From positions 1 through 64,000 of the forward strand of contig JAEINR010000017.1 of the NCBI GenBank assembly GCA_016342325.1: a stretch of DNA of 64,000 bases. Direction: 5' to 3'. The position numbers were made by a program, and so were the translations under genes. This document shows, in pieces, positions 2,784 through 26,078 of the stretch. Under the pieces are notes generated by a model, which had not been told where the DNA came from, searched no databases, and was given only the letters and a program-made list of their open reading frames with translations. Numbering within the stretch: position 1 is the first letter of the stretch; each line of letters opens with the position of its first letter. Origin of the DNA: Desulfobacterium sp. Lineage in GTDB: Bacteria; Desulfobacterota; Desulfobacteria; Desulfobacterales; Desulfobacteraceae.

Positions 2784-4025
2784 ATGAAAATACTTTTCAT
2801 AAATAATTATATGTATCTTAGAGGTGGAGCAGAAGTTTCTTTGATGCAAACTGCAGACTTGTTAATAAAAAATGGTCATGAGGTTTGTTTTGTTGGTACC
2901 GACTTTAATGAAGATACGTTAATTTACAATCCAAAACATACAATTTCAAACATAGAACAAAGTAATAGATCTAATTTAATTAAAAAGATTCAAGAAGGAA
3001 GCAGGATATTCTACTGTGCCAGTGCAGTCAAGACTATAAGGCACGTTATTAGTAAAGAAAAACCTGACATTGTACATCTCAACAACATACACAATAAATT
3101 GTCTCCAGCTGTTGTATGGGAAATAAAAAGAGCTAAAATTCCTATGGTTTGGAGTTTACGTGATTTTAAACTAGTATGTCCGAGTTATTCTTTAAGCCTT
3201 AAAGGACAAACCTGCAATGCATGTCGGAAAGGCAATTATATAAATGCCGTTATAAACAGATGTCAAAAAAAATCATTTGTTATGAGTGCCCTTGTATTTT
3301 TTCAATCGCATTTATTTAACACTTGTTTAAAAATAGACTCTCAAATAAGTTGCTTTTTGCCAACGAGCAAATTTATGTATGATATGTTTGTTCATATGGG
3401 ATTTGAAGGCAAAATGAAAATTTTACCTAATTTTCTTGATTTAGACAAATGTATACCAAATTATAACGTTAATTCAAACAAAGCACTTTATTTCGGCAGG
3501 TTATCGCATGAAAAAGGTCTCTATACACTGGTGGATGCAATATTAGATTTAGATATTGACTTTGAATTTATTGGTGATGGCCCTGAAAAAAATAAGCTTA
3601 TTTCAATTGTGAAATGCAAAACAAAAGGCAACCGAATCACCTTTTTAGGGCATATCTCGCAAAAAAAATTAAGAGAAAAAATCAAAAATTCCCTTTTTGT
3701 AGTATTACCTTCTGAATGTTCTGAAACATTTGGGAGAACGATAATAGAGTCGTTTGCCATGGGACGACCTGTTGTTGGCTCAAGAATTGGCGGCATCCCT
3801 GAATTAGTTATTGATAATGAGACCGGTCTAACTTTCATTCCGGGGGATACCAATGATTTGAAGAAGAAAATGCTTAAATTAATAAACGACAAAGAATTGG
3901 CTAATAAACTTGGACAAAATGCGAGAAAGCTTATCGAGAAAAAGTTCCAGGCAACTATTGTTTATCAACGCCTTATAGGAATCTATAAGAATGTCATCGA
4001 AAATTACTACACATCAAAAAAATAA
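2784..4025 (+). CDS. Family 4 glycosyltransferase
   Basis: A 413-residue GT-B enzyme. The N-terminal domain begins with MKILFINNYMYLRGGAE, the donor/acceptor loop GGAE of GT4 proteins. The C-terminal domain carries YFGRLSHEKG near residue 236 and the E-x7-E signature in ETFGRTIIESFAMGRPVV near residue 315. A cysteine-containing insertion (about residues 133-158) is common in one GT4 subgroup. It should transfer a hexose or derivative to the growing repeat unit. A 142-base spacer with no recognisable promoter separates it from the previous gene; AGGA lies seven bases before the ATG. Confidence 0.82.
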   Translation: MKILFINNYMYLRGGAEVSLMQTADLLIKNGHEVCFVGTDFNEDTLIYNPKHTISNIEQSNRSNLIKKIQEGSRIFYCASAVKTIRHVISKEKPDIVHLNNIHNKLSPAVVWEIKRAKIPMVWSLRDFKLVCPSYSLSLKGQTCNACRKGNYINAVINRCQKKSFVMSALVFFQSHLFNTCLKIDSQISCFLPTSKFMYDMFVHMGFEGKMKILPNFLDLDKCIPNYNVNSNKALYFGRLSHEKGLYTLVDAILDLDIDFEFIGDGPEKNKLISIVKCKTKGNRITFLGHISQKKLREKIKNSLFVVLPSECSETFGRTIIESFAMGRPVVGSRIGGIPELVIDNETGLTFIPGDTNDLKKKMLKLINDKELANKLGQNARKLIEKKFQATIVYQRLIGIYKNVIENYYTSKK

Positions 4026-5097
4026 AATGATGCCAACGGATTTATCACTCATAGTGACGTATAGATGTCAGATGCGTTGTCAGATGTGCAATATTTGGAA
4101 AAATCCAACTCAAAAAGAAAAGGAAATATCTGCAAAAGATTTAGAATTCTTACCACAGTTTAAATTTATAAATATTACTGGAGGTGAGCCTTTTTTAAGA
4201 GATGATCTTGAAGATATCATCTCCGTGGTATCAAAAAAAACAGAGCGAATTGTTATTTCTACATCGGGATATCATAATAAAAGAATCATCGACCTTGCGA
4301 AAAAATTCCCCAAAATTGGCTTCCGTATCAGTATCGAAGGACTTTCCTTGAAAAATGACGAATTAAGAGGGCGTAAAGGTGGATTTGACAGGGGACTAAA
4401 AACCCTCTTGGGGCTCAAGAAACAAGGTGTTAAAGATATTGGCTTTGGGATCACGGTTTCCAATCATAACTCTGAAGATATGCTTTGGTTATATGTACTT
4501 GGCAAATCAATGAAAATGGAATTTGCAACAGCTGCTTTTCACAATTCATACTATTTTCATAAAGATGATAATCATATTATCAACATTGATGAAGTTTGTA
4601 GTAACTTTCAGAATCTTGCAAGTCTTCAAATGAAAGAGATGAATCCTAAATCATGGTTTAGAGCTCTCTTCAATATAGGCCTTATTAATTATGTTAGAGG
4701 CGGAAAACGAATGTTGCCCTGTGAAGCGGGATCGATAAATTTTTTTATAGATCCCTATGGGGAAGTATATCCTTGTAATGGGCTTGAGGAAAAATACTGG
4801 AAAGAAAGTTTTGGTAACATTAATGAATTTTCGTCATTTGAAAAAATTTGGTTAAGTGAAGCTGCCGACAGAATAAGAACAAAAGTAAGGACTTGCCCAA
4901 AAAATTGCTGGATGGTCGGAACAGCATCACCAGTAATGCATAAATATCTAAAAAGTATATTTCCTTGGATTTTGAAAAATAAGATTAAAAGTTTGTTAAA
5001 AATGAAAATTGACACTTCTCCACCATATTTTGATGTCGGGCAGGATATCAAGCAAGGAGATTTAAGAATTCCATGCAAGGATGTCAAAAGAATATAA
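3991..5097 (+). CDS. Radical SAM/SPASM domain protein
   Basis: A 368-residue protein. The radical SAM cluster motif CxxxCxxC is present as RCQMRCQMCNIW near residue 30, followed by the SAM-binding NITGGEPFLR. The C-terminal region has spaced cysteines (CEAGSINFF near 244, YPCNG, then CPKNCW) typical of SPASM auxiliary iron-sulfur clusters. SPASM enzymes modify peptides or sugars; in glycan loci they can act on nucleotide sugars. It overlaps the preceding glycosyltransferase by 35 bases. A second possible start is the ATG pair at 4027. Because PqqD-like and leader-peptide genes lie 6-8 kb downstream, a peptide substrate is possible, but distance and intervening glycan genes make that speculative. 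Confidence 0.8.
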   Translation: MSSKITTHQKNKMMPTDLSLIVTYRCQMRCQMCNIWKNPTQKEKEISAKDLEFLPQFKFINITGGEPFLRDDLEDIISVVSKKTERIVISTSGYHNKRIIDLAKKFPKIGFRISIEGLSLKNDELRGRKGGFDRGLKTLLGLKKQGVKDIGFGITVSNHNSEDMLWLYVLGKSMKMEFATAAFHNSYYFHKDDNHIINIDEVCSNFQNLASLQMKEMNPKSWFRALFNIGLINYVRGGKRMLPCEAGSINFFIDPYGEVYPCNGLEEKYWKESFGNINEFSSFEKIWLSEAADRIRTKVRTCPKNCWMVGTASPVMHKYLKSIFPWILKNKIKSLLKMKIDTSPPYFDVGQDIKQGDLRIPCKDVKRI

Positions 5098-6200
5098 TGA
5101 AAATATTTATTACAGGAACACGTGGAATTCCAGACATCCCAGGTGGAGTTGAAAAACACTGCCAGGAGCTTTATCCCTTGATAGCCAATATGGGGCATGA
5201 CGTCCATGTTGCTACACGCAAGCCTTATGTAGCAAAAAAACATGATAGATGGAAAGATGTTAGCCTCGTTCACATTTATGCTCCCCGAAAAAAGAGTTTT
5301 GAAGCAATTACTCATACCTTTCTGGCGGTTATTAAAGCAAAAAAACTGGATTTTGATATTATACATATCCACGCTGTTGGCCCCGGGGTTATGGTTCCTT
5401 TTGCAAAGATACTTGGATTGAAAGTCGTTTTTACCACCCATGGCCCTGATTATGACAGACAGAAATGGGGAAAAATTGCAAAAACAGTGTTACAGTTTGG
5501 TGAATATTTTGGAAGTAAATTCGCAGATAATGTGATTGTGATCTCAACTGTTATTCAAAATATTATTAAAATACGATGTAATACAAAATCTCACATCATT
5601 TTTAATGGTGTTCCTCTGCCAAAACTTTCAAAACAAACTGATTTCCTTACCAAAATTGGTGTGAAGTCTGGGAACTATATTATTGCTGTCTCCAGATTTG
5701 TACCTGAAAAAGGTCTTGACCTTCTTATCAAGAGTTACCAATCTATAGAAACTAAATGTAAGCTCGTTATTGCTGGCGATGCAGATCATGAAACCGCATA
5801 TAGTAAAAAACTTAAAAAGATGATTGATAAAGATGAGAATATAATCAGAACAGGATATATATTAGGAGAACCTTTAGGGCAGCTTTTTTCACATGCGAAG
5901 CTCTTTGTTATGCCATCCTACCATGAAGGTTTGCCCATTTCCTTGCTTGAAGCCATGAGTTACGGACTGTCTGTTCTGGTGTCTGACATTCCGGCAAATC
6001 TTGAAGTTGATCTTCCAAAAAATCGATTTTTTAAGTGCGGTGATATGAATGATTTGAAAGATAAAATGGAACATCATCTTGCCGGTACTATTTCGAAAAA
6101 TGAAAAAATGAATTTTAGACTCCAGATAGAAGAAAAATATAATTGGGAGAAAATTGCAAAACAAATTGTCAATATCTATGAAAACACACTCGAAAAATAA
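5097..6200 (+). CDS. Family 4 glycosyltransferase
   Basis: The start at 5097 is chosen because TAATG couples it to the previous stop and gives the standard N-terminus MKIFITGTRGIPDIPGGVEK, the G-rich acceptor loop of GT4 enzymes; an in-frame ATG 24 bases upstream is less likely. The donor domain has AVSRFVPEKGLD near residue 193 and the E-x7-E motif in HEGLPISLLEAMSYG near residue 275. About 367 residues, normal for GT4. It acts in the cytoplasm on undecaprenyl-linked glycan. The substrate is unknown. Confidence 0.82.
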   Translation: MKIFITGTRGIPDIPGGVEKHCQELYPLIANMGHDVHVATRKPYVAKKHDRWKDVSLVHIYAPRKKSFEAITHTFLAVIKAKKLDFDIIHIHAVGPGVMVPFAKILGLKVVFTTHGPDYDRQKWGKIAKTVLQFGEYFGSKFADNVIVISTVIQNIIKIRCNTKSHIIFNGVPLPKLSKQTDFLTKIGVKSGNYIIAVSRFVPEKGLDLLIKSYQSIETKCKLVIAGDADHETAYSKKLKKMIDKDENIIRTGYILGEPLGQLFSHAKLFVMPSYHEGLPISLLEAMSYGLSVLVSDIPANLEVDLPKNRFFKCGDMNDLKDKMEHHLAGTISKNEKMNFRLQIEEKYNWEKIAKQIVNIYENTLEK

Positions 6201-7356
6201 AAGACTTGAAATCATTCTCTGTTGCGCAAGTACAAAACTTGAGACTTCTCAAATTAAAAGGCTCGAAAAACTTGTTAAAGATGCGGTTGATTGGCAGCCC
6301 ATTCTTGATCTTGCGATTGAACACGGATTGATCAATTTTTTATATTATCATTTGAAAAATACTTGCAAAGAACTTGTACCTAAAAATTTTTTTATCCTCT
6401 TACAAAGGTATTATTTTCAAAACAGCGCCAGAAATCTCTCCTTAAGTGCAAGCCTTATTAAATTAGTGAATCTGCTAAAGAAAAATAATATTACTGTTGT
6501 ACCGTTCAAAGGACCTGTTCAAGCTCAAATATTGTATAAAGATCCTGGTCTTAGATCTTTTTCAGATCTTGATATTCTTGTAAAAAGGGAGGATGCCGTT
6601 AACGCGCGAAATCTACTTTTTCAAAATGGGTTCACGACAGATATTATTATTCCAGACAACCAGTTAATTAAATATCTTGCAAAGGAAAATTTTTTCACTT
6701 TAATAAGCAGATCCGGTTCAATTGTAATTGATCTTCACTGGGAGATGACAGGTCGGTATTCACTATACCCGTTATATCTTGAAGATTTACCAGGATCTCT
6801 TGAAAATGCGAAACTCGTTGACATTAATATCCTCTCTCTTTCCTGTGAAGACATGCTGATTCAATTATGTATTCACGGAACAAGTCACTGTTGGGATAAA
6901 TTGGAGATGGTCTGTTCGGTTGCAGAAATAGTGAAATCCAACAGGATCAAGGACTGGGATGGTATAATACGAAGAGCCAGCAGATTCAAATGCAGAAGAA
7001 TGATTTATCTAGGGCTTCTACTTGCTAAACATTTGTTTGATATTGTTTTACCCGGTGAAATTGAAGCCAGTATGAAGAATGACCTTAGAATTAATAAACT
7101 GTCAAAGCGTATTCTTCAAAATATTTTAAAAGAAAAAACGGCTTATACTGAAAGTTTAAGCTGGAGATTTTCGCCAACACATTTCCTTGTACGGGATAAT
7201 CTATTTGACATGGTTCACTATTTCTTCAGGCTTTTGTTTCGTCCAACTGTTCGGGAATGGATCAAGTATCCCCTGCCGGATTCTTTGTTGTTTCTTTATT
7301 ATATTTTGCGGCCGTACAGATTAATAAAGGACGGGCTCAGGGGAAAAAATGCTTAG
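6178..7356 (+). CDS. Nucleotidyltransferase-fold protein (NTP_transf_5-like)
   Basis: About 392 residues. The central region has the family pattern VPFKGPVQAQILY followed by LRSFSDLDILV (near residues 105-140), in which the two Asp residues of DLD belong to a Pol-beta-like metal site. Members of this uncharacterised family recur beside PqqD-like and HPr-kinase-like genes in exosortase-associated glycan loci and in some lasso-peptide clusters, as here. It may nucleotidylate or otherwise modify a peptide, lipid or sugar; no reaction is established. The ATG at 6178 lies inside the previous gene; a TTG at 6154 with GGGAG just upstream is an alternative start. Confidence 0.75.
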   Translation: MKTHSKNKRLEIILCCASTKLETSQIKRLEKLVKDAVDWQPILDLAIEHGLINFLYYHLKNTCKELVPKNFFILLQRYYFQNSARNLSLSASLIKLVNLLKKNNITVVPFKGPVQAQILYKDPGLRSFSDLDILVKREDAVNARNLLFQNGFTTDIIIPDNQLIKYLAKENFFTLISRSGSIVIDLHWEMTGRYSLYPLYLEDLPGSLENAKLVDINILSLSCEDMLIQLCIHGTSHCWDKLEMVCSVAEIVKSNRIKDWDGIIRRASRFKCRRMIYLGLLLAKHLFDIVLPGEIEASMKNDLRINKLSKRILQNILKEKTAYTESLSWRFSPTHFLVRDNLFDMVHYFFRLLFRPTVREWIKYPLPDSLLFLYYILRPYRLIKDGLRGKNA

Positions 7357-8788
7357 GGAACATGGAACAATAACCACAGAGGTACAGAAGGTTCTGGATA
7401 TTGCGATAACTGCTTCATCGTTCATAGCAGCCTATTATATCAAAAGGAATCTACCGGGAGCGTGGGGCCATCTTTCCATCGAACCCAATTATTACGTTGT
7501 CCTCCTGATGATAATCATTACCTGGTACATCTCATTTCAATGGACGGGAATGTATATATCCTACCGGATATCCACTTTCTGGGAATTTTTATCCATAATT
7601 ATCAAATCCGTATTTTTGGGGTTGGTGCTTTTGAATATTGGGCTGTATGTCATTCATCTCCAGGACATCAGCCGGCTTTTAATGGGCATTTTTCTGGCGC
7701 TCAACATCTTTTTGCTGACCCTCTCCAAATTCATGGTTTTCATGCTCTTGAGAAGATTGAGGGCAAGGGGAGTCAACACCAGGAATGTTCTGGTCATTGG
7801 AAGCCGTGAGCGGGCCATTGATTTGATCCGATCCGTTGAAAACCACAGAGGGACAGGGTATAAAATCCTGGGTTGTTTCGATCTGACTGCTGATATGGTT
7901 GGCAACACGGTTGTCAACGGTCACAAGGTTATCGGATCCATGGGGGAACTGGAACAATATCTGATTGATAATGTTGTAGATGAACTTGTTTTTGCAATAC
8001 CCCTAAGATTGATCGTGTATGCGGACAGGTACCTTTCAATGGCTGAGAGCATGGGCGTAAAGGTGAGAATCATTCCGGACTGGCAGATCCACTATCTCAT
8101 GTATCAACCGGGCATTGCCCATATCCAATTTGAAGATTTTCTTGGCGTCTCGACCATGGCGCTTCAGACAACGCCACAAAATGAGGGGAAACTGTTTATT
8201 AAGACCCTCATGGATTACGGCGCCGGTTTCTTTTTTCTGGTGCTCTCTCTTCCGCTGTTAATCGTGATTTCTGCAGCAATCAAGCTGATCTCCAAAGGCC
8301 CTGTTCTTTACAAACAGGAAAGGCTTGGACTCAACGGTCGCAAATTCATGGTCTATAAATTCAGGACAATGGTGGATAACGCCGATGAGCTTCAAAAAGA
8401 ACTCATGGAAATGAATGAGGCGGATGGGCCGGTATTTAAGATTAAAAATGACCCGCGAATCATTACCTGGGTGGGTGTTTTACTGCGCAAAACCAGTCTT
8501 GACGAGTTGCCCCAGTTGATTAACGTCCTAAGGGGAGAAATGAGCCTTGTGGGCCCGAGACCCCCCATTCCTTCTGAGGTGGGTGAATATTCAATCTGGC
8601 AGCGACGGCGACTCTCCATGAAGCCGGGCCTTACCTGTATCTGGCAGATCTCCCCCCGGAGAAATGATTTGAGTTTTGACGACTGGATGAAGATGGATCT
8701 TAAATATATTGACACCTGGTCCCTTTTTAACGATGTTAAGCTTTTGGTGCTCACAGCAAAGGCTGTACTTATGGGTTCCGGCCGATAG
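7349..8788 (+). CDS. Undecaprenyl-phosphate sugar-1-phosphate transferase (WbaP/EpsE-like)
   Basis: A 479-residue polyisoprenyl-phosphate hexose-1-phosphate transferase that starts repeat-unit assembly. The N-terminal half has four or five membrane segments and a NAD-binding-like CoA-binding-type fold ([10 protein letters not shown] near residue 150). The C-terminal catalytic domain shows a membrane re-entrant helix, then [39 protein letters not shown] and a PG(L/I)TCIWQ block, all hallmarks of the family. AGGGG precedes the ATG and the gene overlaps the nucleotidyltransferase by eight bases. From here on the GC content rises compared with the glycosyltransferase genes upstream. Confidence 0.92.
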
Positions 8789-8802
8789 GGCAGGGCATTG
8801 AT

Positions 8803-9885
8803 TTGGATTGCGTGTTTTCATACAAGACAAAAATTATTGTTTTTCTAATTCTGGGTTTTGTTACGGTATTTTCGGCGCTTTTTTTTGATCGTTACCAGGA
8901 TTGCGGTCCAGAAATGCTTAAAGACGCTGATTTTGAACAGGGCTCTGCATATTGGAAGGTGGAAAAGGGAGCGGGGTGCCAGGTGAATCTGGATGACGGA
9001 GTGCTGCATATTGCATCTTCTGAATCGAACCGGAACATATTGGTATGGCAACCTGTTAAAGGGTTGGAACAGGTTTTCGCTGTAAGGGTAAAGGCGTTGA
9101 TTCGTTGCAAAGATGTCGTTCCCGGCAATAAGGTTTGGAACAAAGCTCGCATGATCATGACGCAGCATGATGGCACAACAACCCAATGGAAACGGCCCCA
9201 CACCGTCGCTCTTTTTTCCGGCACAAGCAACTGGGAGCGTTACAACAGTTCCTTTGTCATTGCGCCAGACACAAGGGAGCTGAGGGTTGCGGCACAATTA
9301 GCCCATTGCACAGGCGCCATTGAGATCAAGGACTTGAGTCTCACTCCTGTGCGCCAGACACCATGGTATGGTTGGGCACAGAAAATGATATTATCTGCAT
9401 GGGGTATCTATCTTGTTCATATTTTTGGTTCGTGTATCGGTTCCGGCAAAAAGAATTTTCCCAGGATCCTGTTTGTTCTCTCCTTTGCTTTGATTCTGTT
9501 TGGTACATCAATGCCGGGTCGGATTAAAAAACAGATTTCTCAAGATTTTAAAGAACAGGTGTACGCTTACTCGTCAGAATCAATTGATACCGTGCAAAAT
9601 ATTGAACAAATATTTCATAATTTAATACCGTGGGATATTTCAAAGATCGCCCATTTGGTATTATTTATAGGGTTTGGTCTTATCTTGTCATCTATTATGC
9701 CCTCTGGCTCCGGGGCTTATGTTATGCTCAATCTCATGTTTTTTGCCGGTGCCACGGAATTTATTCAATTTTATATTGACGGTCGAACGCCTCTGCCGGG
9801 TGATTTTGTAATTGACAGCACAGGCGGTTTGGTTGGACTTTTCTTGGCAAAAAGCATTCAAGTATTCAGCGATAGGAAGAGATGA
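8803..9885 (+). CDS. VanZ-like membrane protein with an extracytoplasmic jelly-roll-like domain
   Basis: About 360 residues. A first membrane segment (residues 9-28) is followed by an approximately 150-residue beta-rich domain that looks like a carbohydrate-binding jelly roll ([16 protein letters not shown] onward). Several membrane helices then end in a VanZ-type core: SKIAHLVLF, then [12 protein letters not shown] and [13 protein letters not shown], which keep the E-Q-R-D pattern of VanZ proteins. The role is unknown; VanZ-like proteins are frequent in exosortase/exopolysaccharide loci. The start is a TTG at 8803 with a weak ribosome binding site; a GTG at 8812 is another candidate. Its stop overlaps the next gene in ATGA. 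Confidence 0.65.
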
Positions 9886-10802
9886 ATTCAAAATTTTATA
9901 GAGTTGCCGGAATAACGATTGAGGTACGGTCTGATTATTCAATAACCGAGAACACCTTTCATCCCAAGTTCAAGCAGTTTGCAGTTGATGGACCTGGAGA
10001 CGACAATGTGATGATAAACCATCATTTTTACTTGCCCGATTCCATAGAAGAAAGATGTGAACACGAAATCTATAATAAATCTCAATGGCAGGTTTTCAAA
10101 ACCGACAAAGCATGGAAATTTAAATATCATCCTGTTTTACCGGAAGATCCCCCCCATTCTGTAATGGGAATTTTTAATCTGAGTTACACGGCACTGGATA
10201 TATATACCGATGAGATCAGTGAAGAAGCCTATAAAAACAGCAGGTTCAATGGGGTAACTCTTTTTAACACCGACCAGATTCTTTTTGCAAAGCTTCTCTG
10301 CGATAGAAACGGGTTGATAATTCATTCAAACGGTTTTGATGTGAACGGAAATGGTATCCTGCTTGCCGGAGATTCAGGTGCAGGTAAGAGTACCTTATCC
10401 CGAATGTTAAAGAAACGTGGGTTTGACATCCTCTGTGATGATAGAATGTTCGTAAGAAAATTACAGTCCGGTTTTGGGCTGTATGGCAATTGGTGTCATG
10501 GCACGGTGCCTGATACGTCATCCATTTCCGTGCCATTGAAAGCAATTTTTTTTCTTGAACAATCAAAAACAAACAGGGCAATCCTTATGGATGATAAAAA
10601 GCAGATTGCCAGAAAACTTGTTCAGTCCATGGTAAAACCGTTTCTTACCCCAGAAGACTGGGAGAAAACCCTTACAGTCATAGAACATCTTGGACGGACT
10701 GTGAGGTGTTATATTTTAAAATTTGATTTGTCCGGCGAAATATGCGACATGATAGAAAAATTATTTCAAGGAAATAAGAACCTGTTTAAAGAGGACAACT
10801 GA
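9882..10802 (+). CDS. HPr kinase/phosphorylase-related kinase
   Basis: A 306-residue protein. Residues about 150-172 contain the P-loop GILLAGDSGAGKSTLSRML, followed by FDILCDDR, where an acidic patch follows a strand as in HprK. The N-terminal half is unlike true HprK. No HPr-like phosphocarrier is nearby. Related kinases sit next to PqqD-like genes in exopolysaccharide loci (the HPr-rel-A arrangement) and in lasso-peptide clusters, where one studied family member phosphorylates a precursor peptide. By context it may act on the 45-residue peptide encoded at 11717. Its start overlaps the preceding stop (ATGA) and its stop abuts the PqqD-like gene. Confidence 0.78.
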   Translation: MNSKFYRVAGITIEVRSDYSITENTFHPKFKQFAVDGPGDDNVMINHHFYLPDSIEERCEHEIYNKSQWQVFKTDKAWKFKYHPVLPEDPPHSVMGIFNLSYTALDIYTDEISEEAYKNSRFNGVTLFNTDQILFAKLLCDRNGLIIHSNGFDVNGNGILLAGDSGAGKSTLSRMLKKRGFDILCDDRMFVRKLQSGFGLYGNWCHGTVPDTSSISVPLKAIFFLEQSKTNRAILMDDKKQIARKLVQSMVKPFLTPEDWEKTLTVIEHLGRTVRCYILKFDLSGEICDMIEKLFQGNKNLFKEDN

Positions 10803-11117
10803 TTGAATCATACTATGAGCATGAAAATCGATACAAAAAGATGTTATTGTGTTTCTGGGAATGTTATTGCAAAAGAGATTGAAGGTGAACTTGTCATCGT
10901 CCCAATGATCGCAGATGTGGGCAACCTTGATGCGGAGATGTACTCGTTAAACAGCACTGGGTTGGCTGTGTGGAAACAGCTTGATGGGAAAAATGATCTC
11001 GAGCATGTGATAACGGCTCTTTCTGAAGAGTTTGCCACACCCTATGACCAGATTAAGGATGATGTTGTTGAAGTCCTAGAACAATTATTGAAAAAAGAGT
11101 TGATTGTTGAAGCATAG
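10803..11117 (+). CDS. PqqD-like peptide-recognition protein
   Basis: A 104-residue protein of PqqD fold. The pattern VIVPMIADVGNLDAEMYSLN, then TGLAVWKQLDG and YDQIKDDVVEVLEQLLKKELI matches the winged-helix RiPP recognition element, which binds leader peptides and presents them to modifying enzymes. The TTG start at 10803 directly follows the kinase stop and has GAGG eight bases upstream; ATG codons at 10815 and 10821 are alternatives. A nearby leader-like peptide at 11717 is the obvious candidate ligand, though this is inference. Confidence 0.85.
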   Translation: MNHTMSMKIDTKRCYCVSGNVIAKEIEGELVIVPMIADVGNLDAEMYSLNSTGLAVWKQLDGKNDLEHVITALSEEFATPYDQIKDDVVEVLEQLLKKELIVEA

Positions 11118-11616
11118 GTCCCTGGACATTGGCCCTAGGGTCAGACAGATCGATAAAATTGAATTTTCGAGCATAAATATGGGAACCCTTGTCAGTGAAT
11201 TTGTTGATAAAAGAAAAAATTTAAAGTTCAAGGCAACAGGCAACAGTATGTTCCCGTTTATCAAAGATGGAGATGGTATAAAAATTTCTCCATATATTGA
11301 GAACAAACCAGAAATCGGTGACATTGTTGCCTATTTAGATTCCAATACCAGGAATCTCATCGTACACAGGATAATCAAATTGTCTGCCAATCAATTTATT
11401 GCAAAGGGAGATAGCTGTTTACACAGTGATGGGACTCAGTCCAAGGATGATATCCTTGGATATGTTGCTGAGATTAATCAAAGGTTGGGGCTTCCTAATC
11501 GTTTATTGGTTCCCAGATTTAAAAAGATAGTTACTTTGTTGTCCTTGATTCGATTTACTGTGATTTTGAGCATTCTGTTGAAGCCATTGATTCGTCAGAA
11601 TCGATCGTTTATGTAA
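11104..11616 (+). CDS. S26/S24-type signal-peptidase-like protein
   Basis: A 170-residue protein with the signal-peptidase core: GNSMFPFI (Ser about residue 48), GDIVAYLD, VHRII (His about residue 88), FIAKGDS and LGYV. The His in VHRI points to the Ser-His archaeal/eukaryotic-like branch, although the lysine of AKGDS also lies in a conserved block. There is no clear N-terminal membrane anchor; a hydrophobic stretch lies near residues 135-155. It overlaps the PqqD-like gene by 14 bases. In this context it could process the small peptide or the sorted proteins. The start is uncertain: TTG at 11104 or 11107, or ATG at 11179. Confidence 0.72.
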   Translation: MLKHRSLDIGPRVRQIDKIEFSSINMGTLVSEFVDKRKNLKFKATGNSMFPFIKDGDGIKISPYIENKPEIGDIVAYLDSNTRNLIVHRIIKLSANQFIAKGDSCLHSDGTQSKDDILGYVAEINQRLGLPNRLLVPRFKKIVTLLSLIRFTVILSILLKPLIRQNRSFM

Positions 11617-11621
11617 AAACG

Positions 11622-11637
11622 TGGCATGTTTTTTGCA
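11622..11637 (+). promoter_or_regulatory. Sigma-54 (RpoN) promoter
   Basis: TGGCATG, four bases, then TTGCA, with the invariant GG and GC exactly one helical turn apart, is a near-perfect -24/-12 element. It starts six bases after the stop of the S26-like gene and about 80 bases before the leader-peptide gene. Control of PEP-CTERM genes by RpoN with the PrsK/PrsR two-component system is known in other bacteria, and the next genes here are the small peptide and a VPLPA-CTERM protein. A short GATTC/GAATC inverted repeat lies about 30 bases upstream. Confidence 0.75.
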
Positions 11638-11716
11638 TTGTTAACTTGCTGAATCTAATTTGTTTATTTAAACGAACAACTAAAAATATGGTGTTTAATT
11701 CCAAAGGGGATTTGAT

Positions 11717-11854
11717 ATGAAAAATGAAAGAAAATGGGAAAAACCTCGTCTAACTGTGATATCGACGGGCGGTATCAAAGAGAACATACTGGAATTCAGC
11801 AGGCCGAAATCACGGCGAATTCAGGAAACTCCTCCGGATTCAAAACTCAAGTAA
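11717..11854 (+). CDS. Small lasso-leader-like peptide, candidate RiPP precursor
   Basis: A 45-codon reading frame with AAGGGG eight bases before the ATG. The N-terminus MKNERKWEKPRLTVISTGG carries the aromatic-x-x-P-x-L pattern (W7, P10, L12) by which PqqD-type domains recognise lasso leader peptides. After it comes Thr17-Gly18-Gly19. If the core began at Gly19 the preceding residues would be Thr at -2 and Gly at -1, and Glu would fall at core position 8, the spacing used for a lasso macrolactam. The C-terminal half is basic and polar with several Ser/Thr. No lasso cyclase or B2-type protease is present, so the product is unknown. It sits alone behind a sigma-54 promoter, next to a VPLPA-CTERM gene. 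Confidence 0.68.
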   Translation: MKNERKWEKPRLTVISTGGIKENILEFSRPKSRRIQETPPDSKLK

Positions 11855-11902
11855 ATGCCTAATTTTAAAGAGTTCATTTTACATGGATTCATGAGGTGAA
11901 AT

Positions 11903-12580
11903 ATGAAAAAAGTTTTATTGGTACTTTTACTGGCAGTAATTCTCCCTATTGGGCAGGCTGGTGCCGCATACTGGGTCATTCCAACCGTAAACTGGGACAA
12001 CTGGTCTTCCCAGGTGCATTTTAGCGACGATGCTGATGGTAAGTGGCATGAAGCCGGCTTGATAGACTTGACTTTTTATGAGTCACAAAGCGATTACGAC
12101 AATGGAAAACAAAGGCTATTTAGCTCATCTGGATTCTGTATCGAACTAGGCCAATGGGCAACCCTCGGAGAGGCGAATACAAAAAGCCTTACAAGCTACT
12201 CAAGCTCATCCTACGGCCAAACCGAACTATACAACGCTGCATGGTTGATCAACGAGTTCTGGTCTGATACCAATAACAACTATCAAAATGGCGCATTGCA
12301 GATCGCAATATGGGATACACTATATTCAGGAAAGACTGTTTCAGAGATTATGGATTATGGATCTCCTGGTACTTCTCATACTGAAGGTTATTATAATAAT
12401 TACATTAATGCTCTTAATAATTCGAATTACCAGGGAAGTGGTTTGGAAATTGTCGAATTTACAAATCCAAATTTACAGAATATTATAAAACCCGTGCCCC
12501 TACCTGCAACCTTCCTTTTGATGGGGCTTGGATTGGCCGGCCTCACTACGGCCAGAAGAAAAAAGATATTTAATACCTGA
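11903..12580 (+). CDS. VPLPA-CTERM sorted surface/secreted protein
   Basis: A 225-residue secreted protein. Signal peptide: MKKVLLVLLLAVILPIGQAGA. The mature part is rich in Asn, Ser, Tyr and Trp. The C-terminus has the tripartite exosortase signal: VPLPATFLLMGLGLAGL followed by a basic ARRKK tail (residues about 197-222). VPLPA-type signals are cleaved by dedicated exosortases; none is encoded in the window. GAGGTG precedes the ATG, and the gene lies 48 bases after the leader-peptide gene, so both probably share the sigma-54 promoter. It is followed by a terminator hairpin. The biological role is unknown; such proteins often accompany floc or matrix formation. Confidence 0.85.
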   Translation: MKKVLLVLLLAVILPIGQAGAAYWVIPTVNWDNWSSQVHFSDDADGKWHEAGLIDLTFYESQSDYDNGKQRLFSSSGFCIELGQWATLGEANTKSLTSYSSSSYGQTELYNAAWLINEFWSDTNNNYQNGALQIAIWDTLYSGKTVSEIMDYGSPGTSHTEGYYNNYINALNNSNYQGSGLEIVEFTNPNLQNIIKPVPLPATFLLMGLGLAGLTTARRKKIFNT

Positions 12581-12611
12581 ATATTTAAGGTATAGTCTGT
12601 GTGGCATTTAG

Positions 12612-12651
12612 GGCAGGGAGCTGAGATAACAGCGCTCCCTGTCTTTTTTTT
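12612..12651 (+). terminator. Rho-independent terminator after the VPLPA-CTERM gene
   Basis: A ten-base-pair stem, GGCAGGGAGC pairing with GCTCCCTGTC (one G-U pair), is followed by eight T residues. It would end the sigma-54-driven transcript just ahead of the ABC transporter gene. Confidence 0.85.
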
Positions 12652-12671
12652 AGCCCCAGGCTTCAAATTGA

Positions 12672-14504
12672 ATGAATCCCAACCCTTTAAAAACCAAACT
12701 TAAGAACGCCCTTCGCATTGACAGGGCCCTGGGCTTTGTATGGCAGGCAGGCCCGGGATGGACCGTTGCGTCTGCCGTTCTTGTGGTTGTCCAGGGCGCG
12801 CTGCCGCTATTGTCCCTCTATCTTTTAAAATTGATCATTGATTCTGTTTCAGAGGCCATGCCCGGCAGCAGTTTAAGTATTGAATTCGTTACGGGTGAAG
12901 GGTTTTCCAAGGTTGTATGGTATATTGCTTTTGCCGGCGGGGTAGGGCTTTTCGCGGCCTTGTGCAGCTTCTTTTCCGAGTATGTCAAAAAGGCCCAGTC
13001 ACTGACGGTGACAGACCATGTGTTCTCCGTGCTCCATGAAAAATCGACATCTGTGGACCTGGCTTACTATGAATCCCCAAAATACAGGGACACTCTGCAC
13101 AGGGCCCAGCAAGAAGGACCCTACAGACCCACAAGCATCGTGAACGGATTGATCTTGACCGGACAGAGCGGTGCGTCGCTTATCGCCGTCATGTGGTTGC
13201 TGGTTCTGTTCAACCCGGTTCTCTCCCTTGTGATGCTTGCGGCTGCGATTCCCGGGGTTTTGATGCGGTTTCAATACTCGGATCAAATCTATTCCTGGCA
13301 GAAAAAAAGAACGGAGGATGAAAGGAGAATCCATTATCTGAACTGGATGTTGACCGGAGATGCCCATGCCCGGGAGTTCAGGCTTTTCGGACTTGGGGAT
13401 CATTTTATAAAGCAGTTCAAGACCCTTAGAGCCGTGTTAAGGCGCGAAAAACTCAGCTTTGAAAAGAAGCGTGCCTTTGGAGACCTTGTGGCCCAGTCAA
13501 GTACCACCATTGCAGTGTTCGGGTCGTTCGTTTACATCGCATCACGGACGGTCCAGGGAACGATCACACTGGGGGACATGGTCATGTACTTCCAGGCGTT
13601 TCAAAAGGGGCTCCTGTATCTGAGATCTTTTTTGGAAGGCGTTGCCGGGCTGTACGAGGATAATCTTTTTTTACTGAATTTTTATGAGTTTCTCGATGTT
13701 GAGCCAACAATAGAAGAGTCTGAAAGTTCAAACTGTGTTCCTGAAACAATACAGTCTGGATTTGAAATGACCGGTGTTACATTTAAGTATCAAAACTGTG
13801 AAAAAAATGTGATAAAGTGTGTAAACTTTTACATAAAACCCGGCGAAGTTGTGGCACTTGTAGGAGAAAATGGTTCGGGGAAAAGTACCCTTGTGAAACT
13901 TTTATGCCGGCTTTACGATCCGGACAGGGGAACTGTTTTTCTGGATGGAACCGATATCAAACACTTCAGCCCTAAAAAATACAGAAAAAGGATCAGTGTT
14001 GTTTTCCAGGATTATATCCGTTACAACCTGACGGTACGGGATAATATCCGGCTGGGGGACATTGATAGCAACCCCGATCCGGACAGGATCAAGACGGCCG
14101 CACAAAAGGCTGGAATAAAGGCGTATATTGACTCCCTTCATTCGGGATTTGATACGCCCCTAGGCAGAATGTTCAAGGGCGGAGAGGAACTGAGCGTAGG
14201 GCAGTGGCAAATGACGGCACTGGCCCGTGCCTTTTTCAGGGATGCAGATCTTGTGATACTGGATGAACCGGCAAGCTCCCTTGACGTAAAGAGTGAGTAT
14301 GAGGTGTTTAACAGGTTTAAAGATCTTGTGAGGGATAAAGCCGCCCTCATTATCAGTCACCGATTTTCAACGGTTAAGAGGGCTGACAGGATTTGTCTGT
14401 TAAAGGATGGAAAAATTGCAGAGCAGGGGAACCATGATGAGCTCATGGCGTTGGATAAAGAATATGCCGCTCTTTTTCGCAAACAAGCCAATCAATACTT
14501 ATAA
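12672..14504 (+). CDS. ABC transporter, fused membrane and ATPase domains (peptide/lipid exporter type)
   Basis: A 610-residue half-transporter that would work as a homodimer in the inner membrane. Residues about 25-330 form the six-helix type IV exporter domain; residues about 355-605 form the ATPase, with Walker A GENGSGKST, Q-loop VFQDY, signature LSVGQWQMTALARAFF, Walker B LVILDEP and H-loop ISHR. The LSVGQWQ signature resembles that of lasso-peptide and microcin exporters such as McjD. The closeness of a PqqD-like protein and a leader-like peptide makes peptide export plausible, but a glycolipid substrate cannot be excluded. No strong ribosome binding site is seen. Confidence 0.85.
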   Translation: MNPNPLKTKLKNALRIDRALGFVWQAGPGWTVASAVLVVVQGALPLLSLYLLKLIIDSVSEAMPGSSLSIEFVTGEGFSKVVWYIAFAGGVGLFAALCSFFSEYVKKAQSLTVTDHVFSVLHEKSTSVDLAYYESPKYRDTLHRAQQEGPYRPTSIVNGLILTGQSGASLIAVMWLLVLFNPVLSLVMLAAAIPGVLMRFQYSDQIYSWQKKRTEDERRIHYLNWMLTGDAHAREFRLFGLGDHFIKQFKTLRAVLRREKLSFEKKRAFGDLVAQSSTTIAVFGSFVYIASRTVQGTITLGDMVMYFQAFQKGLLYLRSFLEGVAGLYEDNLFLLNFYEFLDVEPTIEESESSNCVPETIQSGFEMTGVTFKYQNCEKNVIKCVNFYIKPGEVVALVGENGSGKSTLVKLLCRLYDPDRGTVFLDGTDIKHFSPKKYRKRISVVFQDYIRYNLTVRDNIRLGDIDSNPDPDRIKTAAQKAGIKAYIDSLHSGFDTPLGRMFKGGEELSVGQWQMTALARAFFRDADLVILDEPASSLDVKSEYEVFNRFKDLVRDKAALIISHRFSTVKRADRICLLKDGKIAEQGNHDELMALDKEYAALFRKQANQYL

Positions 14505-14538: not shown

Positions 14539-14555
14539 TCGGCATTGATATTGCA
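14539..14555 (+). promoter_or_regulatory. Sigma-54 (RpoN) promoter
   Basis: TCGGCATTGATATTGCA keeps the GG and GC pairs at the exact spacing of -24/-12 promoters. It lies in the 137-base gap after the ABC transporter and about 87 bases before the next start codon. With the element at 11622 it suggests that RpoN and an enhancer-binding protein control this exopolysaccharide/exosortase region. Confidence 0.7.
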
Positions 14556-14641: not shown

Positions 14642-15244
14642 ATGATGAAAAACATATTATCTGTCGTAGCAACACTCGCTATACTTACCGGTTTAACCAC
14701 CAATCTCTTTGCTGCTGAACCTGCTGCCAAAGAGGCTTGGCAGATCGCTTATACCGCTGCCCTGGTAGATGGGAAAGCAAATCCGCCCCCCCAGGGGCAG
14801 GCCCTAAAAGAGGGACTTGCCTACACCCCTCCCGAGGAGATGGTTCTAAAAGAGGCTGTTTCAAAAGCCATGGAGAAGGAGGCGTCGGCCTGTGAATGTA
14901 TGAAGATCGCAATCGACCTTGAATATAATCCATACGCTGTTTTAAAGGCAATTTATTCATCCGAGGGCAATGTTCAGCTTGACCAGCTCTGCATGTGCGC
15001 AACCGAGGCCGGAATAATGAAAGCGATTACAGCCAAAGCCGCCGTAGATTCTCTTTCGTCTTCGGGTGCCCCTCTGTTTCAGCAAGATGAAATCACACAA
15101 TCCCAATGCCTCGGTGGAGAGGAAGGTCGTATAAATACCCCTCCTGAAGAGGGGTTGGCCTATACGGCACCTGTAGTCCCTTTGAAAACCATTTCCACCG
15201 ATGCAAATAAAAATAGAAATTTTGCGACCTCCACCACTTTTTAA
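14642..15244 (+). CDS. Secreted protein of unknown function with CxC motifs
   Basis: About 200 residues with a signal peptide (MKNILSVVATLAILTGLTTNLFA). The mature part has two closely spaced cysteine pairs (ACECM near residue 84 and LCMCA near residue 120) and a further cysteine near 155. A short motif is repeated, GLAYTPPEE near residue 59 and PPEEGLAYTAP near residue 168. The family was not recognised. It follows a sigma-54 promoter and has GGAGGG before a double ATG (14642/14645). It is the first gene of the run leading into the outer-membrane and export genes, so a periplasmic or surface role in glycan export is likely. Confidence 0.7.
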   Translation: MMKNILSVVATLAILTGLTTNLFAAEPAAKEAWQIAYTAALVDGKANPPPQGQALKEGLAYTPPEEMVLKEAVSKAMEKEASACECMKIAIDLEYNPYAVLKAIYSSEGNVQLDQLCMCATEAGIMKAITAKAAVDSLSSSGAPLFQQDEITQSQCLGGEEGRINTPPEEGLAYTAPVVPLKTISTDANKNRNFATSTTF

Positions 15245-15281: not shown

Positions 15282-16622
15282 ATGATTATGCGAGCATCGA
15301 TTCGGATTTTTGTCGTGTTACTTTTTTTATGCGGATCCACAACGGTAAGCGCTGCCGATCTAGCCGATCCGGCAGCATCAAATGCACCCATCGGACAGGA
15401 AGAGATCGAACTTCCATCCGGACAAGAGGGGATTGGGGCTGACATTTTCGGTAAAAAGGGCGGTTTTATTCATCCTTTTTTATTGTTTGAGGAGACCTAC
15501 ACAGATAACCTCTACAATACAAACACAAATGAAAAAGAGGACTTTATCACAACCATCAGCCCTGGATTGTGGCTTGCATTGCCGGCAAACAGAGAGAAGC
15601 TTCTGGATATCGGAACAACAAACACCTCTCCGGGCGGCCTCAACCTGAGCCGTATCAAACCCGATACCACACGACGTGCCCAGGGCTATTTCCTTTATGC
15701 ACCCGAGTTTGTCCTTTATGCTGATGAATCCGATCATAATACCGTCAATCACAAGGCAGAAGGACTTTTTCAATATAACTTCAATATGGGACTCTCCATT
15801 GACGTTGTTGATCAGTTCAATAGAAGAAGTGAAGTGAATGATAACGGTATTTCCGAGCGTCTTGACGAATACCAGGACAACCTGCTCAATTTCATCATGG
15901 CCTATGACCCTTCGGAAAAAATCAGATTCAGGGTTGATTATTCAAATTATGACCTTGAATATGATGATAGTGTCAACGATTACAGGAACAGGAATGACAA
16001 TTCCTTTTCAGCCTATGTTTTCTACAGGATAAAACCAAAGACATCCGTCTTTGTGGAGTATGAGTTCGCCGACATCAGTTTTGATACCAATTCAGATTCG
16101 GACAGTGTTGAGAACAGGTACTATACCGGCCTTGAATGGGCAATTACCGCAAAGACCAAGGGCAGGGTAAAAGCCGGTTATATTAAGAAGGACTTTGACA
16201 AGGAAGGCATGGATGACCAGGATGGCTTCTCCTATGAGATCCAGGCCCAGCACAACTTTACTCCGAAAAGGGCGTTGCAGGTAAACGGTTTCCGTAGATT
16301 CAACGAATCAACCATGATTACCTCAGCCACCTATCTGTCAACCGGGCTGTCTGCGGCATGGCTTCAGCGTTTTGCCGAGAAGTGGTCCGGCACATTGAAT
16401 GTCTCATACACCAACGAAGAGTATAAAGGCAACATTACCTTCAACGGCGTCACAGGCGAAAGGGATGATGATCTGTTCAGCATCGCACCCGCCGTGAGAT
16501 ATGAGTTCAGGGACTGGATGCTGTTTGATCTGGGATACATTTTCGCACAAAGGGATTCAAATTTCGCCCCTTTTGATTATAACAACAACACCATATTTTT
16601 CAGGATTGATATTTCCCTTTAA
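15282..16622 (+). CDS. Outer-membrane beta-barrel protein of the exopolysaccharide locus
   Basis: A 446-residue protein with a signal peptide ending near SAA (residue 24) and alternating amphipathic strands throughout (for example LSIDVVDQFNRRSE, SAYVFYRIKPKTSVFVEYEF, GRVKAGYIKKDF), ending in an aromatic-rich last strand FFRIDISL typical of outer-membrane insertion. Such barrels accompany PEP-CTERM/exosortase glycan loci and may form the outer-membrane pore or a surface anchor. AAGGAG precedes the ATG. The next gene starts directly after its stop. Confidence 0.8.
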   Translation: MIMRASIRIFVVLLFLCGSTTVSAADLADPAASNAPIGQEEIELPSGQEGIGADIFGKKGGFIHPFLLFEETYTDNLYNTNTNEKEDFITTISPGLWLALPANREKLLDIGTTNTSPGGLNLSRIKPDTTRRAQGYFLYAPEFVLYADESDHNTVNHKAEGLFQYNFNMGLSIDVVDQFNRRSEVNDNGISERLDEYQDNLLNFIMAYDPSEKIRFRVDYSNYDLEYDDSVNDYRNRNDNSFSAYVFYRIKPKTSVFVEYEFADISFDTNSDSDSVENRYYTGLEWAITAKTKGRVKAGYIKKDFDKEGMDDQDGFSYEIQAQHNFTPKRALQVNGFRRFNESTMITSATYLSTGLSAAWLQRFAEKWSGTLNVSYTNEEYKGNITFNGVTGERDDDLFSIAPAVRYEFRDWMLFDLGYIFAQRDSNFAPFDYNNNTIFFRIDISL

Positions 16623-17423
16623 ATGAGACTCAAACTGGTTTTAAACGTTTTTTTAATCTGTCTGGTGCTTGGGACAGGTCCTCTGTATGCAGTCGAAGCG
16701 GAGTATTTTGTAGGTAATGGAGATGTTCTTGACATTAACGTGTATGAGAACGAAGACCTTTCAACAACGGTAAGGGTAACTGCGGATAAAACAATTCGTG
16801 TGCCCCTTATCGGCGAGGTCAGTGTCAATAGCCTTACTGTGTCACAGGTTTCAAGAAAACTCGAAGGGCTCTTTGCCGATGGATATCTGGTCAACCCCCA
16901 GGTGGATGTCTTTATCAAGGAGTACAGGAGCAAGAAGGCCACCATCCTGGGGCAGGTCAGAAATCCGGGTCTGTTTGAGCTTCGGGGTGAAACCACCTTG
17001 CTTGAGTTTATTTCCAAGGCGGGTGGGATGATGATCGATGCGGGAAATGTTGCAACGATCAAGCGAAAAAAAATTGGAAAAGTCCAAGAGGATAACATAA
17101 CAATTGACCTTAAACATCTCATCGAAGAAGGGGATACGTCTCTTAACATTCCCATCAAAGACGGAGACAGTGTATACATTGCCAAGGCAGATAATTTCTA
17201 TGTCTCGGGTGAGATCAAAAAGCCCGACTCTTATAAATTGGATTCAGATGTAACCGTAATAAAAGCCATTACCAGGGCAGGCGGGTTCTCCAAGATCGCG
17301 GCCAAGGGAAAGGTTCGGATCATCAGAATCATTGATGGGAAGAAACAGGTACTTGAAAACGTGAATATGGATGAGGCGGTTCTACCTGATGATGTTATTG
17401 TTGTTCCTGAGAGTTTTTTTTAA
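16623..17423 (+). CDS. Polysaccharide export protein (Wza-like, SLBB domains)
   Basis: A 266-residue periplasmic protein with a signal peptide (residues 1-20, no lipobox cysteine seen). The polysaccharide-export domain begins YFVGNGDVLDINVYENEDLS and continues VRVPLIGEVSV; two SLBB-type repeats follow, near residues 95-150 (ATILGQVRNPGLFEL) and 190-245 (FYVSGEIKKPDSYKL). Members form the periplasmic/outer-membrane conduit for exported glycan together with the co-polymerase encoded next. Lacking a lipidated N-terminus and long C-terminal helix, it may need the preceding beta-barrel as its outer-membrane pore. Confidence 0.9.
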   Translation: MRLKLVLNVFLICLVLGTGPLYAVEAEYFVGNGDVLDINVYENEDLSTTVRVTADKTIRVPLIGEVSVNSLTVSQVSRKLEGLFADGYLVNPQVDVFIKEYRSKKATILGQVRNPGLFELRGETTLLEFISKAGGMMIDAGNVATIKRKKIGKVQEDNITIDLKHLIEEGDTSLNIPIKDGDSVYIAKADNFYVSGEIKKPDSYKLDSDVTVIKAITRAGGFSKIAAKGKVRIIRIIDGKKQVLENVNMDEAVLPDDVIVVPESFF

Positions 17424-17425
17424 AC

Positions 17426-19600: not shown

Positions 19601-19615
19601 TCCGGGCGCCTCTCT

Positions 19616-25412: not shown

Positions 25413-26078
25413 ATGAACCTTATCAGTAAGGTATTGGGAATCGTTTTCTTGGGCCTGGGATTGGCAAGTGCCGCAGGTGCTGCCACGTTTAATCTGAACA
25501 ATGATTCCAACAATTCTGAATGGGACAGTTATGGTTATGATAGTTTAACCTATACGAAAGATGGTATTGGCCTGACCGTCACGGCCTGGAGAGACACGGA
25601 TTCTTTAACTGACGGCCCATGGGTTTATAAAAGTTCCAAGAATAATGGACTTGGCGTTAACAACGGTCTCTGGGATAACTCGGTGGATATCGAATACAGC
25701 GGAAGTTCACGGTGGGATGAGGGCCTTCTTTTTACGTTTGATCAGGCTGTTACGTTAACGAAGATGGAGTTTCGTTATGTCGATGAAGAAGATGACATGG
25801 TGATTTTTGAAGGTGTCGGCGGAAAATCTTTTGGTACTTATGGGATCGAGCTTTATGGTTCCAACGAGCATGGCAAGGTTGAATTTGACTCCCCCCTGAA
25901 CGGCACCACATTTTTGGTTAAGGCACCGGAGGGGGATGACGACTTCTTTGTTAACAGTATTAAAGCCACAGCGAGAACCCAGGTGCCTGCGCCTACTGTG
26001 CCGGTACCTTCAACCGTGCTTTTGTTAGGGGCGGGGCTGGCAGGATTTGTTGGAATCAGAAAACGAGTAGCCGTATAA
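25413..26078 (+). CDS. PEP-CTERM-type sorted secreted protein
   Basis: A 221-residue protein with a signal peptide (MNLISKVLGIVFLGLGLASAAGA) and a beta-rich mature part. The C-terminus has a PEP-CTERM sorting signal, VPVPSTVLLLGAGLAGFVGI, with a basic RKR tail. The signal has VPVP where the other sorted protein has VPLP. GGAGGAG precedes the ATG and a terminator follows, so it is monocistronic. An exosortase outside the window would be needed for its processing. The mature domain was not assigned. Confidence 0.83.
   Translation: MNLISKVLGIVFLGLGLASAAGAATFNLNNDSNNSEWDSYGYDSLTYTKDGIGLTVTAWRDTDSLTDGPWVYKSSKNNGLGVNNGLWDNSVDIEYSGSSRWDEGLLFTFDQAVTLTKMEFRYVDEEDDMVIFEGVGGKSFGTYGIELYGSNEHGKVEFDSPLNGTTFLVKAPEGDDDFFVNSIKATARTQVPAPTVPVPSTVLLLGAGLAGFVGIRKRVAV

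Follow-up and report, generated by a model that had tools for sequence, protein, structure and literature searches.

A PqqD/kinase peptide gene set without an adjoining radical SAM gene in an exopolysaccharide operon of Desulfobacterium sp.

What does a gene set that resembles the accessory genes of lasso-peptide clusters do in an exopolysaccharide (EPS) operon that encodes no lasso cyclase? The question is raised by positions 6154-14504 (+ strand) of a 64,000-nt window, the whole stretch analysed here, which comprises the first 64 kb of the 90.7-kb contig JAEINR010000017.1 of Desulfobacterium sp. (assembly GCA_016342325.1; 6.67 Mb in 205 contigs; family relatives include Desulfospira and Desulfobacula). 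In gene order the locus encodes an NTP_transf_5 protein, a glycosylphosphotransferase, a VanZ-like protein, an HPrK-like kinase, a PqqD protein, an S26-type protease, a 45-aa peptide, a VPLPA-CTERM protein and an ABC exporter; a 200-aa secreted-type protein and then EPS export and polymerase genes follow 3' of the exporter. An earlier note, made from the letters alone, had described this set as lacking the lasso cyclase and the B2 protease, and profile matches confirmed that the set is real and that both genes are absent from the locus. We favour, with a probability of about 0.58, a PqqD-guided peptide-modification pathway that arose from a family of radical SAM/kinase peptide cassettes and has lost the radical SAM step, its product acting in an EPS matrix programme together with a PEP-CTERM protein. 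Searches of the open PMC library gave no paper that treats this system.

The kinase (9882-10802) was assigned to the HPrK/PEPCK fold from its structure model (predicted local distance difference test score, pLDDT, 91), which matched PEPCK and HprK/P structures; the PF07475 score of 32.7 bits lies slightly below the cut-off of 33.3. The PqqD-like leader-binding protein (10803-11117; true start probably ATG 10815 or 10821) matched PF05402 with 57.9 bits (cut-off 23.4), and the five best PDB matches of its model (pLDDT 81) were the lasso B1 protein TbiB1 bound to leader peptides (5v1v/5v1u). All family matches of the S26/S24-like protease (11104-11616) stayed below cut-offs; it carries a Ser (GNSMFP) and a His (VHRI), which we take to be an S26B-like dyad. 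The NTP_transf_5 nucleotidyltransferase-family protein (6154-7356; PF14907, E 4e-57, 194 bits, cut-off 31.2) is a proposed hexose or nucleotidyl transferase. The exporter (12672-14504) is MsbA-like by family profile matches, and no peptidase domain was matched in it. The peptide (11717-11854) belongs to no family, follows a Shine-Dalgarno-like AAAGGGG (11703-11709, read from the sequence) and consists of a leader with W7-x-x-P10-x-L12, then E22-x-I-L and a Cys-free tail ending in Lys; it was the only match to the peptide pattern in the source genome. By sequence and model the locus thus holds a gene-encoded precursor, a leader-binding protein and a candidate tailoring enzyme, as is general for PqqD-guided ribosomally synthesized and post-translationally modified peptides (RiPPs).

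Relatives of the kinase were found at E 1e-6 in 29 of 116 genomes (own included), the weaker of which may be other HPrK families, and at 1e-50 in 27 of 389 genomes of the class (own included). Scanning 84,980 species genomes by pattern gave 86 relatives, of which 80 were retained; these came from Desulfobacterota, Omnitrophota, Aminicenantes, Chlorobiaceae, Acidobacteria, Planctomycetes, Methanomicrobiales and others, so that both bacteria and archaea (methanogens) are represented in the family. After removal of identical domains, 92 kinase domains remained, 45 of them fused behind a radical SAM domain, with PqqD, S26 and often NTP_transf_5 genes as neighbours. The 62 loci with C-K peptides yielded 90 distinct sequences with W/Y-x-x-P/T-x-L, E-x-V-L and C-K/R, which ended in Ser (81), Thr (8) or Pro (1); this count omits peptides without C-K/R, e.g. 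that of locus L051. For the representatives L138 and L051, no NCBIfam cut-off was reached among the matches listed, and their precursors had no NCBIfam family match and none above a Pfam cut-off. Fused kinases occurred in L088-L160 (e.g. L138:1949-3901), and the one fused protein scanned likewise reached no NCBIfam cut-off among the matches listed. The nearest named models of these cassettes are NCBIfam SynChlorMet ScmC/D/E/F, whose scores on the window proteins, as on the scanned representatives, fell far short of the cut-offs. Membership of the window locus in SynChlorMet was rejected (ScmC 51 vs 125 bits, ScmD 29 vs 100, ScmE 39 vs 400 on the window radical SAM protein), as was membership of HPr-rel-A (NCBIfam TIGR04352; HprK-related kinase A 29 vs 200 bits).

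Thirteen kinases, including that of the window, formed one clade, with an SH-like approximate likelihood-ratio test (SH-aLRT) value of 99 in a 92-row tree and bootstrap/SH-aLRT values of 100/99 in a 38-row tree. Its sister was a radical SAM locus, L051 of Desulfospira joergensenii (93/84), and the clade lay nested among radical SAM loci when the tree was rooted on distant radical SAM relatives. Twelve clade loci hold both PqqD and peptide: the window, L043, L044, L045, L046, L047, L048, L058, L059, L081, L083 and L176. Within these, S26 was found in 11, its Ser and His kept in 11/11 proteins, and NTP_transf_5 in 7; four of the five loci negative for NTP_transf_5 have less than 5.6 kb of upstream sequence, and the fifth, L081, has 8 kb. 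In L081, two PqqD genes (9693, 10927) flank the kinase, and EPS export genes lie upstream, not downstream. The thirteenth clade kinase, L085 on a 5.3-kb contig, had no PqqD and no S26 beside it, and its one loose-pattern open reading frame (ORF) was judged noise.

The clade shares kinase, PqqD, S26, leader motif, E-x-V-L and often NTP_transf_5 with the radical SAM/kinase cassettes. Unlike them, it lacks an adjoining radical SAM gene, the C-K motif and mostly the C-terminal Ser, and it has a sigma-54 element. No radical SAM gene was detectable within 8 kb in the 11 clade loci other than the window, six of which have at least 7.4 kb upstream and the rest less. The clade appears to derive from radical SAM/kinase peptide cassettes and to have lost the radical SAM enzyme on the way; a single loss in its ancestry would be the simplest history. 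Within the window itself, a SPASM radical SAM gene lies 5.8 kb upstream (3991-5097). A rival reading is that maturation of the peptide still depends on a radical SAM enzyme whose gene lies elsewhere (in the window perhaps this one), the kinase adding a secondary step as it does among the relatives; we regard this as unlikely. The upstream protein was detected by a model built from cassette enzymes, but its best scores were to PTO1314 and HpnH, PapB being the third-best NCBIfam match (59 vs a cut-off of 340) and ScmE reaching just 39 bits. L051, with an operon near-identical to that of the window, keeps an adjoining radical SAM gene, whereas the six other clade loci with long upstream sequence have none, and the 3 Cys in total across 12 clade peptide tails suggest that Cys-based cross-links were largely lost.

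A peptide of the same kind adjoined the kinase in 12/12 clade loci tested, the window included (shuffled loci 13.7%; opposite strand 2/12), and W-x-x-P-x-L was kept in 12 of 13 clade members; the expectation of the earlier note that relatives would conserve a small peptide beside the PqqD/kinase pair was thereby borne out. The C-K motif was gone from 12/12 clade peptides and the C-terminal Ser was retained in 2/12 (loss compared with C-K peptides, Fisher p 3e-11, relatedness ignored). A Ser or Thr three residues after E-x-V-L, at the former Cys position, was present in 9/12 (binomial tail 6e-5 against tail composition; a post hoc count over phylogenetically dependent sequences) and gives a hint, no firmer, of a phosphate acceptor. 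L059 and L176 were near copies whose leaders were identical in 96/96 nt, followed by a diverged core and 60 identical nt. A PEP-CTERM tail lies in another frame 3' of the peptide gene in both (L059:4666-4900; L176 near 2123-2266), and an overlapping ORF in the +1 frame translates to a hydrophobic segment with a PEP-CTERM tail. Because the tail abuts this leftover PEP-CTERM end, the core divergence may be a deletion junction instead of a product of selection.

Catalytic residues of the kinase are intact: H148, K169, D186 and D187 of the window were conserved in 12/12 clade kinases, and outside the clade H, K and the first D were kept in 78/79 and D187 in 74/79. The H-K-D-D motif was taken from the portion of PMC9266682 that treats such kinases; likeness to PadeK refers to residue order and fold, not to an alignment with PadeK itself. 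The ratio of nonsynonymous to synonymous substitution rates (dN/dS) of the kinase was 0.12 to 0.16 in three clade pairs, two of them with high dS (1.3, 2.6), and a fourth pair was saturated. For kinase, PqqD and S26 it was below 0.4 in the pairs computed (PqqD of L046/L047 not calculable). These values bear on a further reading, in which the cassette is a remnant that has been decaying since the radical SAM enzyme was lost. Decay would explain why C-K and mostly the C-terminal Ser were lost, why L085 has an orphan kinase and why L059 and L176 keep only the tail of the PEP-CTERM gene; it sits badly with invariant catalytic residues, with the low dN/dS and with a leader motif and sigma-54 element in 12/12 loci, and we consider it rather improbable.

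The sigma-54 type -24/-12 element TGGCATGTTTTTTGCA (11622-11637) lies 95 nt 5' of the peptide ATG; no other strict match occurred in the 64 kb (0.06 expected). Initial patterns matched before 6/12 (strict) and 8/12 (relaxed) clade peptides. The final relaxed pattern, N-GG-Y-A-Y-N5-TTGC-W, was fixed after the sites had been seen; it matched 49-95 nt upstream of 12/12 clade peptides, with inner ATGs taken as starts for L046 and L083 (0.04 expected by chance in 120 nt). It also preceded the peptide in 5 of 10 related EPS-clade radical SAM loci, hand-picked and including several close kin, and in 0 of 81 other C-K peptides, for which the 200 nt ahead of the start of the longest ORF were used. A second element, CGGCATTGATATTGCA (14540-14555, relaxed pattern), precedes the gene of the 200-aa protein (14642-15244), which has a signal-peptide-like start, belongs to no known family and is conserved in the EPS operon. 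In 9 of 13 loci, the window included, the final pattern stood before this gene, and it was absent before ten other gene types (0/137 starts, 18 loci). Since the element precedes these genes and not those of the enzymes, the regulated outputs are likely two: the peptide together with the surface protein, and the 200-aa protein. The VPLPA-CTERM gene (11903-12580) is followed by a terminator-like hairpin with a T8 run (12610-12653; -22.3 kcal/mol, z -2.6); 4/200 shuffles folded as well, and a consensus terminator scan did not list it.

A comparable arrangement is described in part of a study on a flocculating Aquincola, in which a PEP-CTERM gene with -24/-12 motifs depends on RpoN and is followed by a putative terminator (PMC9850573). 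Such loci (PepA, PrsK/R) share with the window EPS genes and a sigma-54-type unit in which a terminator follows the PEP-CTERM gene; they differ in that here the PqqD/kinase peptide leads the unit, no exosortase was found and the PrsR model gave nothing above its cut-off in 12/12 genomes searched, on which ground a PrsR-type activator was rejected. The VPLPA-CTERM protein matched TIGR03370 above cut-off, adjoins the EPS genes and contains a Cys and the motif ALQIAIW. The claim that the set lies in an exosortase-type glycan locus held for the EPS operon and failed for the exosortase: none was found in the source genome (TIGR02602, PF09721), though PEP-CTERM proteins are present. PF09721 exosortases were above cut-off in 9/12 genomes searched, in each case on a different contig from the kinase or over 600 kb away from it.

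In the pathway that we favour, sigma-54 RNA polymerase would transcribe the peptide and VPLPA-CTERM genes as one unit, as motif and hairpin suggest. The W-x-x-P-x-L leader would dock on PqqD as in lasso B1 proteins, and the HPrK-fold kinase would then phosphorylate the peptide. As the C-terminal Ser of the relatives is mostly absent in the clade, the likeliest new acceptor would be the Ser/Thr three residues after E-x-V-L, the Cys position of the relatives. A sugar or nucleotide may then be placed on the phosphate by the NTP_transf_5 protein, in the manner proposed for PsmN. Removal of the leader would fall to the S26 protease and export to the ABC protein, and gene order and shared control point to a product that would work in the EPS matrix together with the PEP-CTERM protein. 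The kinase/NTP_transf_5 pair has a precedent in pseudomycoidin, for which a review states, in the section on these enzymes, that PsmK phosphorylates the C-terminal Ser and that PsmN is needed for a hexose on the phosphate; that section leaves open whether PsmN is itself the glycosyltransferase or acts as a nucleotidyltransferase before a host enzyme takes over (PMC9266682). Phosphorylation, nucleotidylation or sugar transfer on the peptide is, by this analogy, plausible. A more specific proposal can be entertained but is doubtful: a Ser-Gly/Pro-rich peptide, phosphorylated and perhaps phospho-glycosylated, would be made under sigma-54 control with PqqD, kinase, NTP_transf_5 and S26 alone and would serve as primer, terminal group or cross-linker of the exopolysaccharide. 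If correct, the pathway would represent a RiPP-like system from which the signature enzyme has apparently been dropped and in which leader binding, kinase and protease remain, which lets kinase-only peptide maturation be tested directly. Operon and shared promoter type would tie the peptide to EPS/PEP-CTERM matrix genes, a first concrete hint of a role for PqqD/kinase pairs.

Several observations weigh against this pathway. We infer every chemical step in it, any modification of the peptide included. The known acceptor, the C-terminal Ser, is absent in 10/12 clade peptides including that of the window, and the proposed new site carries Ser/Thr in just 9/12, noted post hoc among related sequences. 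L081 lacks NTP_transf_5 despite 8 kb of upstream sequence and no S26 was found there either, while L085 carries a clade kinase alone. The branch that joins clade and L051 (93/84) falls below the starred level of support, the SPASM radical SAM gene leaves room for a radical step in the window, and the dS of two of the three kinase pairs is high. The view of the earlier note, that a separate system for peptide modification is tied to EPS, accordingly stood in part, as a derived branch of the radical SAM/kinase family with its own sigma-54-type control in an EPS operon; the chemistry is plausible by homology, but the acceptor Ser of known kinases is missing in the window and in 10/12 clade peptides.

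PqqD, kinase and peptide might instead form a phosphorylation switch over EPS assembly, with no peptide exported. Kinase and PqqD look soluble, and a Wzc-type tyrosine autokinase is encoded in the same operon; yet an S26-type protease accompanies the set in 11/12 loci, and the relatives' peptides are precursor-like, with conserved leader and variable tail. Such a switch seems improbable to us.

The likeness to lasso accessory genes, also claimed earlier, proved partial. HPr kinases have been reported within lasso clusters in passages of PMC4289311 and PMC7533575, the latter also listing PqqD, nucleotidyltransferases and EpsH there. Like paeninodin and pseudomycoidin clusters (PadeK, PsmK, PsmN), the window has a B1-type PqqD with, by sequence and fold, a YxxPxL-type leader (W for Y), an HPrK-like kinase with His-Lys-Asp-Asp, a protein of the nucleotidyltransferase family and an ABC exporter. 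Unlike them, it has no cyclase, no B2 and no lasso core, and the C-terminal Ser acceptor is missing from its peptide and mostly from the clade; its nearest kin are radical SAM/kinase cassettes, not lasso clusters.

Cyclase and B2 were searched in nine of the 12 clade genomes (all except those of L081, L083 and L176). B2 (PF13471) remained below cut-off in the source genome and in all nine, and in none of the nine did an Asn-synthase match lie on the contig of the clade kinase within 150 kb of it. The source genome encodes two full-length Asn synthases on other contigs, both best matched by asparagine synthase above cut-off (lasso model 227 and 240 bits). Among 14 genomes, B2 was above cut-off in two, G018 and G082. 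In G018 it lies ~0.6 kb from a family kinase gene, with an Asn-synthase match 2.5 kb away. This locus, L060 (G018:C64, 5651-9366), scores as a paeninodin-type lasso cluster: its cyclase fits the lasso model best (413 bits, cut-off 525), B2 is above cut-off, the lasso-type PqqD reaches 69 vs 80 and the precursor (5651-5827) 26.4 vs 27 bits, and there is a second kinase. Its neighbour is a radical SAM cassette embedded in EPS genes, from which it is clearly distinct; L060 yielded no cassette peptide. Its detection indicates that lasso genes are found where present. A true lasso peptide with a cyclase supplied in trans was therefore rejected as barely credible: the by-eye spacing in the window peptide (T at -2, G1, E8) would suit it, but the E belongs to the E-x-V-L motif common to non-lasso relatives, the genome has no B2 above cut-off, its full-length Asn synthases are best read as asparagine synthases, and a real cluster beside a cassette locus, L060, looks clearly different.

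The glycosylphosphotransferase, the VanZ-like gene and the downstream EPS genes are context. The polyprenyl glycosylphosphotransferase of the EPS operon (7349-8788) matched TIGR03025 above cut-off. A protease identity for the VanZ-like membrane protein (8803-9885) was rejected on its PF04892 match above cut-off; some clade loci also have a VanZ-like gene. Among the EPS outer-membrane, export, chain-length and polymerase-type genes (15282-21946), the tyrosine-autokinase model TIGR01007 alone was above cut-off. A second PEP-CTERM-type protein is encoded at 25413-26078. In the VPLPA-CTERM protein, the Cys and a [AG]LQ[LI]AIW motif were kept in 6/7 aligned clade members, in which it resembles thioester-domain adhesins; a Pfam TED match, at cut-off, was obtained for the homologue of L043 only.

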